Assembly (NCBI RefSeq): GCF_028736155.1
Contig: NZ_CP117879.1
Location: 124,001-188,000 of the forward strand
Length of the DNA stretch: 64,000 bases
Source of the DNA: Flavobacterium sp. KACC 22763
GTDB taxonomy: Bacteria; Bacteroidota; Bacteroidia; Flavobacteriales; Flavobacteriaceae
Direction: 5' to 3'
Each line of letters opens with the position of its first letter. The first letter of the stretch is position 1. Shown here in pieces: positions 14,036 through 55,869 of the stretch. A program made the position numbers and the translations under genes. The notes under the pieces were generated by a model, which worked only from the letters and a program-made list of their open reading frames with translations, ran no database searches and was not told the origin of the DNA.

Positions 14036-14115
14036 GATTTAAAATAATCAATTTTTAAATTCCAAATTCCAAAAAAAAAAGAATATTAAATATAAATCAA
14101 AAACAAATTTAAATT

Positions 14116-29216: not shown

Positions 29217-29279
29217 AAATTCCAAATTCCAAAAAAAGCGAAGCTTTTTTTTCGTTCTAACTTGGAATTTGGAATTTAA
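29217..29279. repeat. AAATTCCAAATTCCAA inverted-repeat hairpin
   Basis: AAATTCCAAATTCCAA on the left is complementary to TTGGAATTTGGAATTT on the right, with GCGAAGC-type loop sequence between. It probably terminates the DUF5723 transcript. The same heptad word recurs at 14054, 40686 and 55237. Confidence 0.6.
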
Positions 29280-33299: not shown

Positions 33300-33354
33300 T
33301 TTTATTGAAATTAATATTGTAATTGTTCTGTGACTTAACACAGAGTGATAAAGT

Positions 33355-33423
33355 ATTTAGAATTTAGAATTTAGAATTTAGAATTTAGAATTTAGAATTT
33401 AGAATTTGGAATTTGGAATTTCG
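33355..33423. repeat. Heptanucleotide tandem repeat (AATTTAG)n
   Basis: Nine consecutive 7-base units, six AATTTAG then two AATTTGG and one AATTTCG, preceded by a partial unit. They lie between the tetR-like stop and the tetX-like start. Confidence 0.9.
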
Positions 33424-33430
33424 GATTTAT

Positions 33431-40588: not shown

Positions 40589-40747
40589 AACGGCATAGTT
40601 CAAGTACTAAAAATAAGAATTAGTTTGAACATACGCAAGGCCATATGATTGTAGATTTTAGAGTGTAGATTTTGGATTTTTGAAGGAATAAATTCCAATT
40701 TTTTTAAATTCCAAATCCCAAATTCCAAAGGAGCAAAGCGACTTTAG

Positions 40748-40851
40748 AAAATCTAAAATCTAAAATCTAAAATCTAAAATCTAAAATCTAAAATCTAAAA
40801 TCTAAAATCTAAAATCTAAAATCTAAAATCTAAAATCTAAAATCTAAAATC
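40748..40851. repeat. Heptanucleotide tandem repeat (AAAATCT)n
   Basis: About 14.9 perfect copies of AAAATCT in 104 bases. The right end merges with the minus-strand stop codon (TGA, 40850-40852) of the SpoU gene. Left of it, 40686-40730 has AAATTCCAAATCCCAA units. The gap 40604-40849 has no ORF. Confidence 0.95.
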
Positions 40852-41638
40852 AGAACCCCCTCTGTCTTTTTGCTTCAAAAATTAGAATTGCAGCAGCAAC
40901 AGAAACGTTCATGCTGTCGATTTCTCCTTGCATTGGGATAATGATGTTTTGAGTTGCTTCATCTCGCCATTGCTGAGTTAAGCCCGTTGCTTCTGTGCCG
41001 ACAACCAAAGCAGTTGGAGTAGTAAAGTTTTGTGTATGATATGAAGTCGAATTTTGTAAAGTGGCGCTGTAGAAATTGATCTTTTTTTCTTTCAAAAAAG
41101 CAATAATTTCTTCTGATGTTCCAGTTGCGATTTGGTTGGTAAAAAGACATCCAACGCTTGAACGGACAATATTCGGATTGTATAAATCGCTTTTTGGATT
41201 GGCGATTAAAACTGCGTCTAGATTTGCTGCATCTGCAGTGCGTAAAACAGCACCGATATTTCCTGGTTTTTCTAAAGATTCTACCACTAAAATCAGAGGA
41301 TTGTCAGATAATTTTAAATCAGATAATTTTAAGGATTTGGTTTTCGCTATGGCTAGAATTCCTTCCGTTGTATCTCGATAAGCCAGTTTTTGATAAACTT
41401 CTTTGTTGATTTCGATAATCTGAAACGGATTCTGAATCAGCTTATTGATTTCTGATTCTGAAACTAATTCTGGTAAGAATAAAACCGTTTCGATTTCGTA
41501 ACCACCTTTTATGGCTAATGAAATTTCGCGTTGTCCTTCAATCAAAAACGTTCCGGTTTGTTTTCTGGCTTTGGCTTTTTCTTGAAGTAAAACCAAAGAT
41601 TTTATAAACGGATTTTGAACTGAAGTAATTTGTTTCAT
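40850..41638 (-). CDS. TrmH/SpoU-family RNA 2'-O-methyltransferase
   Basis: 262 aa. N-terminal RNA-binding part: QITSVQNPFIKSLVLLQEKAKARKQTGTFLIEGQREI (SpoU_sub_bind-like). The SPOUT motifs follow: LVVESLEKPGNIGAVLRTADAAN (motif 1), VGTEATGLTQQWRDEA (motif 2) and IIPMQGEIDSMNVSVAAAILIFEA (motif 3), with the deep knot. It methylates 2'-OH of rRNA or tRNA using SAM; the target nucleotide cannot be read. The gene ends inside the edge of a heptad tandem repeat. Confidence 0.9.
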   Translation of the reverse strand: MKQITSVQNPFIKSLVLLQEKAKARKQTGTFLIEGQREISLAIKGGYEIETVLFLPELVSESEINKLIQNPFQIIEINKEVYQKLAYRDTTEGILAIAKTKSLKLSDLKLSDNPLILVVESLEKPGNIGAVLRTADAANLDAVLIANPKSDLYNPNIVRSSVGCLFTNQIATGTSEEIIAFLKEKKINFYSATLQNSTSYHTQNFTTPTALVVGTEATGLTQQWRDEATQNIIIPMQGEIDSMNVSVAAAILIFEAKRQRGF

Positions 41639-46138: not shown

Positions 46139-46156
46139 TTTTTTATAGTTTTTATT

Positions 46157-46258
46157 GTTTCAAGTTTCAGGTTTCAAGTTTCAAGTTTGCTCTTCTTTGT
46201 TAGGCTGAGCGGAGTCGAAGCCCGTTGTGCCCTTCGACTTCGCTCAGGGTGACAATTG
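46157..46258. repeat. GTTTCAA heptads and CTGAGCGGAGTCGAAG inverted repeat
   Basis: 46157-46188: four and a half 7-base units (GTTTCAA, one GTTTCAG). 46205-46220 and 46232-46247 are a 16-base inverted repeat (15 of 16 matching) in a CCTTCGACTTCGCTCAGGG-type element, common as dispersed repeats. Gap 46139-46337 otherwise empty. Confidence 0.75.
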
Positions 46259-46337
46259 AGATGTACAAAGTTTTCGCTTTCAAGTTTGTCCACCATTCAC
46301 CATTAACAATTTATCATTAACAATTCACAATTAATAA

Positions 46338-53776: not shown

Positions 53777-54724
53777 ATGGAATACACTATAAGAAAGTAC
53801 TCTCAAGATGATTATTCAATCTGGAATGATTTTGTGGCCCAGTCTAAAAATGCTACATTTTTATTTCATCGCGATTTTATGGAATACCACAAAGATCGTT
53901 TTAAAGATTTTTCGCTTTTAGTTTTTGAAGATGAAAAATTGCGCGCCATTCTTCCTGCCAATAAAAAAGAAAATACGGTTTATTCGCATCAGGGGCTCAC
54001 ATATGGCGGATTGGTTTATTTACCCAAATTGAAAGCAGAAAAGGTTGAATCTATTTTAAATGAAATTTTACTTTTTTTGAAAGAAAACCAAGTTAGTACT
54101 TTTTGTTATAAGCCAATTCCAGATTTTTATTTTTCTGAGGGAAACGCAGCAATTGACTTCTTCTTATTGAAAAGAGGAGCGGTTTTAGAACGAAAAGAAA
54201 TGAATCTGGCTATTAATCTGACGGTTCCCCTAAAGATTTCTAAAAGCAAAATGAAGCATTTTAGAAGGATAGAAAACCTAGATTTGGATATTTTTGAAGA
54301 AGAAAATTTTGATCCTTTTTGGGGAAAAATTTTGGAGCCAAGATTAGCAGAGAAGTTTAATGTAAAACCAGTCCACTCCAAAGAAGAAATTACGTTTTTG
54401 AGATCTAAATTTCCGAAAAATATTAGACAATATGCTGCTTATAGAAATGATGAAATTATAGCTGGAATAACGATTTTTGAAACCAAAAATGTTGTAAAAT
54501 CACAATACGGTGCCACTTCAAAAACAGGAGAAGAATTTAGAGCACTAGATTTTTTATTCATTAATCTGATTCATAAATACAAACGAAAAGGGAAGCATTT
54601 TTTTGATATGGGAATTGTGGATGATGAAAATGAATCAGGCTATAATTTAGGGCTATTGAATCAAAAAGAAGAATTAGGCTGTTCTATTTATAATCAGGAT
54701 TTTTATAAAATAGAAATAAAATGA
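53777..54724 (+). CDS. FemAB/GNAT-like acyltransferase
   Basis: 315 aa. Two GNAT-like halves: IWNDFVAQSKNATFLFHRDFMEYH at the start and RNDEIIAGITIFETKNVVKSQYGATSKTGEEFRALDFLFINLIHKYKRKGKHFFDMG in the second half, a pattern of FemAB-like peptidoglycan or aminoacyl transferases. It starts the polysaccharide cluster and overlaps the aminotransferase ATG by 4 bases. It may acylate an amino sugar from the following enzymes; that is inference. Confidence 0.68.
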   Translation: MEYTIRKYSQDDYSIWNDFVAQSKNATFLFHRDFMEYHKDRFKDFSLLVFEDEKLRAILPANKKENTVYSHQGLTYGGLVYLPKLKAEKVESILNEILLFLKENQVSTFCYKPIPDFYFSEGNAAIDFFLLKRGAVLERKEMNLAINLTVPLKISKSKMKHFRRIENLDLDIFEEENFDPFWGKILEPRLAEKFNVKPVHSKEEITFLRSKFPKNIRQYAAYRNDEIIAGITIFETKNVVKSQYGATSKTGEEFRALDFLFINLIHKYKRKGKHFFDMGIVDDENESGYNLGLLNQKEELGCSIYNQDFYKIEIK

Positions 54725-55869
54725 TACCATTTTTAGACCTAAAAAAAATAAACAAACCGTATGAAACCGCTTTTCAGGAAAAATTGAAATTGGTTTTAGA
54801 AAACGGCTGGTATATTTTAGGAAAAGAATTGGAAACATTTGAAAAAGCTTTTGCGGAATATTGTCAATCAAAATATTGTATCGGAGTCGGAAATGGCTTT
54901 GATGCATTGGTTCTTATTTTTAAAGGCTATATAGAACTCGGAAAACTCAAAAAAGGCGATGAGGTTATTGTTCCAACAAACACATATATTGCTAGTATTC
55001 TAGCCATTTTGCAAGCCGATTTGGTTCCTGTTTTGATCGAACCAAGATTAGAAAGCTACAATATAAATCCAGAATTAATTCCCGAGAAAATCACTTCAAA
55101 AACAAAAGCTATTTTAGCAGTCCATTTGTATGGACAATTGGCTGAAATGCAGAAAATAAATGAGGTTGCAGAAAAGCATGCTTTGATTGTTGTAGAAGCT
55201 GCAGCACAAGCTCATGGTGTTAGAAAATATCAATTCTTAAATTCCAAATCCCAATCAGACGAAAATCTACAATTTTCGGATGTCACTCTGAGTGAAGGGC
55301 CACAAAGTGCTTCCGCATTTAGTTTTTATCTAGGCAAAAAATTGGGTTGTTTGGGAGACGGTGGAGCCATTACCACAAATGATGAAAAATTAGCAAAAGT
55401 TCTTTTTTCGCTTCGAAATTATGGTTCAGAAAAAAAATATCATAACGAATATGTCGGCGTAAACTCCAGATTAGATGAACTTCAGGCTGGGTTTTTAAAT
55501 TTAAAATTACCAAATTTAGATTCAGATAACGAGAAAAGAAGAGCTATTGCAAAACGATATTTATCAGAAATTGAAAATGATAAAATAGTGCTTCCATTTT
55601 GGGATCTTTCACGGAATCATGTTTTCCATTTGTTTGTTATTCGAACAGAAAACAGGGCACATTTACAAGAATATTTAGCTCAGAACAATATTCAAACCGT
55701 AATTCATTATCCCATTCCTCCACATCAGCAAAAGGCTTTTTCACAATGGAATAATTTGTCGGTTCCGATGACTGAAAAGATTCATAAAGAAGTTTTAAGC
55801 TTGCCGATAAGTCCCATTATGACAGAATCTGATATGAATTTTGTGATCAAAACTTTAAACCAATACTAA
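54721..55869 (+). CDS. DegT/DnrJ/EryC1 sugar aminotransferase (FdtB-like), with abnormal active site
   Basis: 382 aa. Family features: FLDLKKINKPYETAF at the N-terminus, GVGNGFDAL, EVIVPTNTYIAS, and after the active site YHNEYVGVNSRLDELQAGFLNLKLPNLD. These are typical of FdtB/QdtB aminotransferases that make dTDP-3-amino-3,6-dideoxyhexoses. Two oddities: (1) the PLP-pyridine aspartate in the motif ED-AAQA is Ala160 here (VVEAAAQAHG); (2) residues about 169-196, just before the Schiff-base Lys206 in SFYLGKKLG, are about 20 longer than normal and match dispersed repeat DNA. The gene is otherwise intact and in a closely packed operon. Activity is therefore questionable. Confidence 0.85.
   Translation: MIPFLDLKKINKPYETAFQEKLKLVLENGWYILGKELETFEKAFAEYCQSKYCIGVGNGFDALVLIFKGYIELGKLKKGDEVIVPTNTYIASILAILQADLVPVLIEPRLESYNINPELIPEKITSKTKAILAVHLYGQLAEMQKINEVAEKHALIVVEAAAQAHGVRKYQFLNSKSQSDENLQFSDVTLSEGPQSASAFSFYLGKKLGCLGDGGAITTNDEKLAKVLFSLRNYGSEKKYHNEYVGVNSRLDELQAGFLNLKLPNLDSDNEKRRAIAKRYLSEIENDKIVLPFWDLSRNHVFHLFVIRTENRAHLQEYLAQNNIQTVIHYPIPPHQQKAFSQWNNLSVPMTEKIHKEVLSLPISPIMTESDMNFVIKTLNQY

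Follow-up and report, generated by a model that had tools for sequence, protein, structure and literature searches.

The locus analyzed here raises the question of how a loop of an enzyme came to carry sequences that elsewhere in the same genome lie between genes. It sits in a 64,000-nucleotide stretch, hereafter the window, which spans bases 124001-188000 of a Flavobacterium genome that we searched as a single contig of 5.56 Mb.

An enlarged aminotransferase loop contains dispersed repeats

The gene at 54721..55869 (+ strand), supported by its open reading frame (ORF), by homology to proteins in the PDB and by dN/dS, encodes a DegT/DnrJ/EryC1/StrS sugar aminotransferase of 382 amino acids. 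Sequence comparison with the PDB gave 7n63, 5u1z and QdtB (3frk) as the nearest solved structures, with homology over the full length and the same motifs flanking the loop described below. Because no curated NCBIfam cut-off was reached, we call the protein FdtB/QdtB-like on the basis of homology; the substrate of enzymes of this type is presumably a dTDP-3-keto-6-deoxyhexose. Genes for a flippase and a glycosyltransferase-like protein adjoin it. We take the lysine of the SFYxGK motif to be the PLP-binding residue and Asp160 to be the pyridine-nitrogen aspartate that holds PLP. The window copy retains this lysine, in a motif that reads SFYLGKK for SFYPGKN, and differs from FdtB/QdtB-type enzymes in having Ala at codon 160 (55198..55200, +), where 104 of 105 orthologs have Asp; the pair of PLP-site residues is thus incomplete. 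Judging from these substitutions the enzyme may be impaired, although dN/dS outside the loop is 0.09 between this gene and its sister gene L025.

Between the motifs AQAHG and FSFY lies a hypervariable and probably surface-exposed loop, VRKYQFLNSKSQSDENLQFSDVTLSEGPQSASA (55219..55317, +), delimited by loop extraction in 105 distinct orthologs. It has 33 residues, compared to 16-17 in the family and 16 in the solved relatives shown; the initial annotation was right that the segment exceeds the family length, but the excess is 16-17 residues and not the approximately 20 proposed. It had also placed two repeat families in tandem within the reading frame, and both are there. The first is an AATTCCA-type heptamer module, TTAAATTCCAAATCCCAA (55237..55254, +), which reads LNSKSQ and is identical over all 18 bases to 40704-40721. 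The second, predicted at about 55280-55296 and located at 55281..55297 (+) by genome copy search, is one shortened REP arm, TGTCACTCTGAGTGAAG, which reads DVTLSEG and differs at two positions from the minus strand of 46238-46254; L025 carries a longer form of this arm, CTGAGCGGAGTCGAAGAG. Between them we found an additional element that had gone unmentioned, a TCTAAAA-like heptamer remnant, AAAATCTACAATTTT (55262..55276, +), which reads ENLQF and matches its strict word label with two mismatches.

Searching the genome for both repeats, as had been suggested, showed that both families are dispersed. TTAAATTCCAAATCCCAA has three exact copies and, within ≤3 mismatches, 133+113 copies on the two strands (246), versus 11+9 (20) for the pattern reversed. 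For TGTCACTCTGAGTGAAG there are 28+16 copies (44) within 3 mismatches, the minus-strand copy at 46238-46254 among them, versus 0+1 for the reversed pattern. At 40704..40855 (+), the AATTCCA module precedes a 111-bp TCTAAAA array in an intergenic composite whose order is the same as in several loops. A repeat search further delineated an intergenic island at 46156..46311 (no strand assigned) made up of a TTTCAAG array, a REP pair and an ATTCACC/ATTAACA array; the REP pair (46201-46258) has arms at 46205-46220 (+) and 46232-46247 (-), compared to the single shortened arm in the loop. Other intergenic repeat islands in the window lie at 33351-33428, 14053-14073 and 29218-29276. Ten relatives have arrays of varying repeats upstream of the gene, at a distance similar to that of 46156-46311. 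Profile matching identified four Y1_Tnp (PF01797) matches above cut-off in this genome (G000:C1:122639-122983, 3342471-3342815, 4169920-4170261 and 5534761-5535006), which are candidate REP-associated transposases; the match at 122639-122983 lies ~1 kb upstream of the window.

Relatives fill the same loop with other repeats

We searched 150 drawn Flavobacterium genomes for the aminotransferase. A match at E<=1e-100 was present in 118, and no listed place contained an internal stop, in a search that genes broken into pieces could escape. Fourteen lower-scoring places were left out of the locus set, which comprised 147 loci (L025-L171) taken from named contigs and from the drawn genomes; setting aside eight duplicates and 15 loci that lack the first loop pattern (four distant loci, L160 and L162-L171) yielded 124 distinct genes, namely 105 orthologs (>58% identity) and 19 more distant genes. 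L162-L171 were read with a looser loop pattern, and L160 was left out.

By the ending of the loop, 17 of the 105 orthologs are short and canonical (KAGNLSDAAA-like), 12 reach that ending after additional residues and 76 lack it, a count that includes at least one gene missed by the pattern (L090, SGNLNNAAA). All 19 distant genes, three of which come from other lineages, have 16-18 loop residues, 18 with a canonical-like ending (the exception is L146), and one matches a repeat word; ten further paralogs (among them L170, the second copy in our own genome) are canonical with 16 residues. Together, 29/29 distant genes have 16-18 loop residues and 28/29 the canonical ending, and none of the 29 holds the residues of the window loop, whose conservation in distant proteins lacking the repeats had been proposed as a refutation. 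A family-wide draw gave matches in 72 of 149 genomes, from which 29 loci were read, one of them again Flavobacterium; 27 have 15-18 residues. Two loci of other genera have a longer loop at the same place, L236, which is repeat-like, and L256, which reads NSKFQ because it itself carries AATTCCA repeats.

Among 120 database proteins, 119 loops could be read, with lengths of 16-51 residues, and 115 contained a repeat-type peptide. Such peptides, which were selected after the loops had been seen, gave 209 matches in 3,225 loop residues versus 0 in 42,024 other residues. Two loop forms, P0011/P0012 and P0043, come from entries that their source assigns to one species, F. ginsenosidimutans. Dispersed repeats—7-bp tandem units and REP arms—thus occupy one fixed loop in most of the Flavobacterium genes examined, and the alignment with other genes that was originally recommended shows relatives replacing the segment by other repeats. 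Replacement need not lengthen the protein. Exactly 17 residues are found in 33 of the 88 non-canonical or enlarged loops, and because 26 of these 33 carry a listed repeat word, equal-length overwriting is common; the description of the segment as an insertion thus needs correction, the change often being a substitution of equal length. Once length 17 was excluded, loop lengths showed no preference modulo seven residues.

Seven-base periodicity is concentrated in the loops

For the 88 loops that are enlarged or non-canonical, identity between bases 7 bp apart (lag 7) was 0.473, and lag 14 gave a further peak. In 2,000 draws of equally long windows from the same genes the mean was 0.280 and the highest value 0.306, and codon shuffling within the loops reduced the value to 0.281. 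Taken singly, 59/88 non-canonical loops were 7-periodic at p<=0.01, versus 0/17 canonical loops and 0/315 control windows, leaving 29/88 that are not 7-periodic at 1%. The loop of the window is by itself only weakly periodic (p 0.035 versus codon shuffles); the case for it rests on the genome counts and on its relatives. A de novo search, with genes called by a simple longest-ORF rule, as in the cluster and AroA surveys below, found 46 arrays of 7-bp units in 6.5 kb of loop sequence (36/105 genes); elsewhere, coding DNA (1.04 Mb) yielded 10 and non-coding DNA (0.19 Mb) 30. At periods of 5, 6 and 8-11, the loops gave 0-1 arrays, and as many as 20 turned up in the remaining coding DNA (20 for period 9, 15 for period 11).

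To identify individual repeats we used a strict list of thirteen overlapping words: AATTCCA, TCTAAAA, ATTAACA/ATCAACA, ATTCACA, GAATTAC, TTTCAGA, CAGTATT, CAACCGA/CAACCTA, TTGGAAG, AAAGTCG, AAAAATC, REP arms and small palindromes, of which AAAAATC, TCTAAAA and ATTAACA cross-match. A strict match was found in 66/105 loops versus 47/3,150 control windows; the list replaced a looser word set that had matched 79/105 loops versus 176/2,100 controls. On the reverse strand, 16 loops match TTGGAAG (equivalent to a cross-match with AATTCCA), three TCTAAAA, one AATTCCA and one a palindrome word. No listed word is matched by 22/105 loops; these, like the 29 that lack 7-periodicity, may have decayed or arisen in some other way. 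We counted copies genome-wide for AATTCCA, REP, CAGTATT, CAACCKA, GAATTAC and TCTAAAA, and arrays of the ATTCACA/ATTAACA and TTGGAAG types were found in non-coding flanks; AAAGTCG, AAAAATC, TTTCAGA and the palindromes were listed from the loops alone.

Sister genes differ in the loop and little elsewhere

A quick tree of 108 proteins, built with the loop left out and with 23/105 inner branches well supported, shows repeat labels switching almost as often as shuffled labels do (ATTAACA, 19 changes versus a shuffled mean of 19.4; TCTAAAA, 17 versus 19.2; AATTCCA, 15 versus 19.5). Different species, and even sisters that are 95% identical, carry different repeats. The clearest such pair is L029 and L054 (SH-aLRT 97; dS 0.167), whose genes are 95% identical on each side of the loop and whose neighborhoods are 94-96% identical over ~5 kb each way. 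Their loops are wholly different: one is of the ATTAACA type, with 17 residues, and the other combines AATTCCA, a palindrome and a REP arm in 35 residues. Across five pairs, dN/dS outside the loop is 0.06-0.12; the loop changes freely, and purifying selection acts on the remainder of the enzyme.

Homologous recombination could in principle generate this pattern if strains exchanged loop alleles and repeats had been captured only a few times, and near-random labels on the gene tree are expected under such exchange as well. In 4/11 pairs (L025/L062, L113/L116, L027/L068 and L027/L025), one 60-bp bin touching the loop lies 7-18 points below the side mean, as could be left by short exchanged tracts. 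Of the eight pairs with long flanks, six lose homology downstream, 1.1-2.5 kb from the start of the gene; the gene therefore borders variable DNA, a setting that suits exchange. Against this, the 60-bp bins touching the L029/L054 loop are 0.90 and 1.00 identical in flanks of 94-96% identity, so there is no long exchanged tract around it. We consider allele exchange an unlikely account of the loop.

Loop repeats and the repeat content of genomes

Genomes with an AATTCCA loop tend to be rich in AATTCCA. The median number of three-unit copies is 15 in 11 such genomes versus 1 in 72 others (p 4.7e-5, kinship uncorrected), in a count where some genomes are also rich in the reversed control (G016, 41+59); G103 has an AATTCCA loop yet no three-unit copy. 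The two genomes with CAGTATT loops rank 4th and 2nd of 25 for that repeat, and the two with CAACCKA loops rank 2nd and 4th of 25. For GAATTAC, G062, whose loop carries that repeat, shares sixth place among 25 genomes; first and second are G133 and G119, both of which have canonical loops. For TCTAAAA, whose reversed control is uninformative since the pattern is identical when read backwards, three of the four genomes with matching loops hold 111-131 copies and the fourth (G026) holds one, and the richest genomes, G121 and G056, have other loops. Abundance in a genome does not dictate the loop repeat. Nor was a donor near the gene apparent: 12-mers common to a loop and its own flanks (<=10 kb) were not above controls, and we rejected this candidate source.

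These counts also bear on a local origin of the heptamer arrays, in which slippage of native codons during replication would have produced them and nothing was imported. In many bacterial genomes, according to one paper, heptanucleotides are the most frequent class of long simple repeat, and 7-nt slippage has been put forward (PMC4679880); existing arrays probably do change in this way. Slippage as the origin of the arrays appears quite unlikely, however, given that AATTCCA, TCTAAAA, CAGTATT, CAACCKA and GAATTAC are dispersed in the genomes searched, that AATTCCA is commoner where the loop has it, that REP arms, which are not 7-bp repeats, occupy the same loop and that sister loops have no common sequence.

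Heptamers occupy loops of other enzymes

We surveyed where clusters of repeats fall, using the first-listed, best-matching places, which are not random draws. Of 52 AATTCCA clusters sampled in our own genome, none lies inside another gene, 45 being intergenic and seven at ORF edges. One of 20 TCTAAAA clusters in G006 is inside a gene, which is the aminotransferase gene, and four are at edges; for GAATTAC in G133 the corresponding numbers are 0/12 and six. CAACCKA clusters were found inside genes in 7/10 cases in G119, 8/27 in G141 and 15/35 best-match loci over the genus, one of the last being the aminotransferase loop of G021 (L345). Of these in-gene copies, 28/30 are in the sense orientation, giving the hydrophilic peptide QPTTDNR, and two are antisense. 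For CAGTATT, 6/21 clusters are inside genes, three sense and three antisense; across the CAACCKA and CAGTATT counts one place was counted twice (L264 = L327), and in L343 the antisense ORF is possibly spurious. On the strength of the G119 cases, we rejected the idea that the aminotransferase loop is unique.

Family models identify leucyl-tRNA synthetase, methionine synthase, MnmE, RmlD, an E2 acyltransferase, a BioF-like protein and YggS as hosts, together with a PabB-like protein whose family match is below the model's cut-off. At one place this PabB-like protein has TYQQPTTDNRQPKIE in G119 and QCSVFSIQSSDVEIQ in G012, which are of equal length and are different repeats. LeuRS (L321, L346, L350), MetH (L268, L329, L335), the PabB-like protein (L264, L313) and RmlD (L267, L298) also have in-frame heptamer segments whose position is shared by several genomes. 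AroA (EPSP synthase; L262, L289, L344) has four loop sites, and a 7-bp array was present in 12/12 site-by-genome cases from three genomes that were picked because one site was hit. The arrays are mostly of different words and mostly of constant length, with two close variants at one site. In 120 database AroA proteins (P0121-P0240), the four sites were read in 117, 90, 87 and 62 cases and proved highly variable, with repeat-type peptides; one site is sometimes REP-like (VTLSAVEG).

The breadth of hosts makes it distinctly unlikely that diversifying selection for enzyme specificity or evasion favors new loops, with repeats as raw material. Loop change is indeed very fast relative to the dN/dS of the remaining sequence in the five pairs, as such selection would produce, but AroA, LeuRS, MetH, the PabB-like protein and RmlD behave in the same manner, where it is hard to imagine, and the loops are mostly hydrophilic filler.

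Discussion

We conclude that the aminotransferase loop very probably originates from non-coding repeat DNA turned into protein. That the repeats enter the gene by a copying step is a tentative proposal. Under such a model, repeats would be copied ectopically from intergenic sites into the gene, with short homologies mediating template switching or gene conversion and, for REP, perhaps with the aid of a RAYT-type transposase. Selection would remove copies that cause a frameshift, introduce a stop or compromise folding; the survivors would be in-frame, stop-free and mostly hydrophilic copies in tolerant loops. A resident repeat has sequence in common with numerous other copies, and this would accelerate later replacements. 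Y1 transposases may be needed for the REP component, and our analysis linked no enzyme to the heptamers.

The success of 7-bp units may have a plain reason. Because 7 = 1 mod 3, all frames of an array give one and the same seven-residue cycle, so a stop-free cycle leaves the array open whichever frame of that strand is read. The cycles of captured strands, being stop-free or more hydrophilic, support a protein-level sieve: for GAATTAC, TTTCAGA, CAGTATT, ATTCACA, AAAAATC and CAACCTA the captured strand is stop-free and the other has a stop, and for AATTCCA, CAACCGA and AAAGTCG the other strand is more hydrophobic. In TCTAAAA and ATTAACA both strands contain a stop, and in the copies found in loops this codon is altered. 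Against a sieve, the sense cycle of CAGTATT is hydrophobic and TTGGAAG does not exceed its opposite strand in hydrophilicity; nor does a sieve explain why AATTCCA, stop-free on both strands, is absent from the other genes sampled. A broader and more speculative reading is that an ongoing, perhaps enzyme-driven process in Flavobacterium writes a genome's 7-bp repeats into recurrent docking loops in core enzymes, frequently without altering their length, and that heptamers are a protein-coding repeat class in their own right, which spreads since a stop-free 7-bp unit can be read through in all frames.

Two other explanations fare poorly. A phase-variable contingency locus, in which 7-bp units toggle the gene on and off, would fit the frameshift caused by gain or loss of one unit and the adjoining flippase and glycosyltransferase-like genes, but it is very improbable given the lack of internal stops at the listed places (among the 118 matching genomes, where broken genes could be missed), the short and imperfect arrays and the REP arms that serve equally well. 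Chance resemblance in an AT-rich, Asn/Lys/Ser-rich loop, to which the weak periodicity of the window's own loop might point, deserves almost no weight, since codon shuffling keeps composition and abolishes the lag-7 signal, and since there is an 18-base identity and there are whole-genome copy counts to account for.

If the origin of the loop in repeat DNA is accepted, non-coding repeats become protein repeatedly at the same enzyme residues across a genus, and the path from junk DNA to peptide is traceable from donor copy to mature loop. Protein-coding selfish DNA would then widen from a few intracellular bacteria with palindromes to a large genus with simple direct repeats. Annotators should expect repeat peptides like NSKFQIP, NLKSKIY, QPTTDNR and VTLSEVE in Flavobacterium enzymes.

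Several known systems invite comparison. Heptanucleotide tandem repeats of cyanobacteria are named STRR; these, the G-rich heptamers and the TAACTGA repeats are tandem 7-bp units dispersed between genes, as are the heptamer arrays that we found in Flavobacterium. Such repeats are described as common between genes in several bacteria, with the G-rich heptamers of Xanthomonas and Nostoc under-represented in coding sequence and most TAACTGA sets upstream of starts, as far as these two accounts go (PMC4692102, PMC4679880). Flavobacterium heptamers, by contrast, form protein loops.

REP elements associated with RAYT (TnpA-REP) are likewise dispersed, and the TGTCACCCTGAGCGAAG-type copies of the window resemble them in this respect and in being paired as inverted arms at 46201-46258. 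The many near-identical dispersed copies expected of a REP are present here (44 versus 1 reversed, <=3 mismatches). By the definition quoted in one source, in which two Flavobacterium genomes appear in a table of REPs, these elements seldom overlap coding regions (PMC12306157). In the Flavobacterium loop, the imperfect palindrome is reduced from two arms to a single arm, which is read as the protein sequence VTLSE(V)E.

The original papers on the protein-coding palindromic elements (RPE) of Rickettsia are reportedly those of Ogata and colleagues. These elements, described as short dispersed repeats lying both between genes and in frame within conserved protein genes (PMC2229807), are the closest precedent that we found in the sources consulted (PMC2229807, PMC2635572). 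RPE and similar protein-coding repeats of Wolbachia are alike in having dispersed copies between genes and in frame inside genes, and we observed both in Flavobacterium. The likeness to RPE drawn in the initial annotation is apt to this extent. It falls short in that RPE are palindromic and MITE-like, with a hairpin, whereas the Flavobacterium copies are mostly 7-bp direct repeats of many sequences, with REP contributing one arm only, and in that the same loop is here overwritten by different repeats in different species. We found no report of repeats inside Flavobacterium coding sequences in the open-licence literature, which is weak evidence of novelty. The recurrent overwriting of the same enzyme loops by direct 7-bp repeats and REP arms extends the known forms of protein-coding repeat DNA, and it recurs across the genus.
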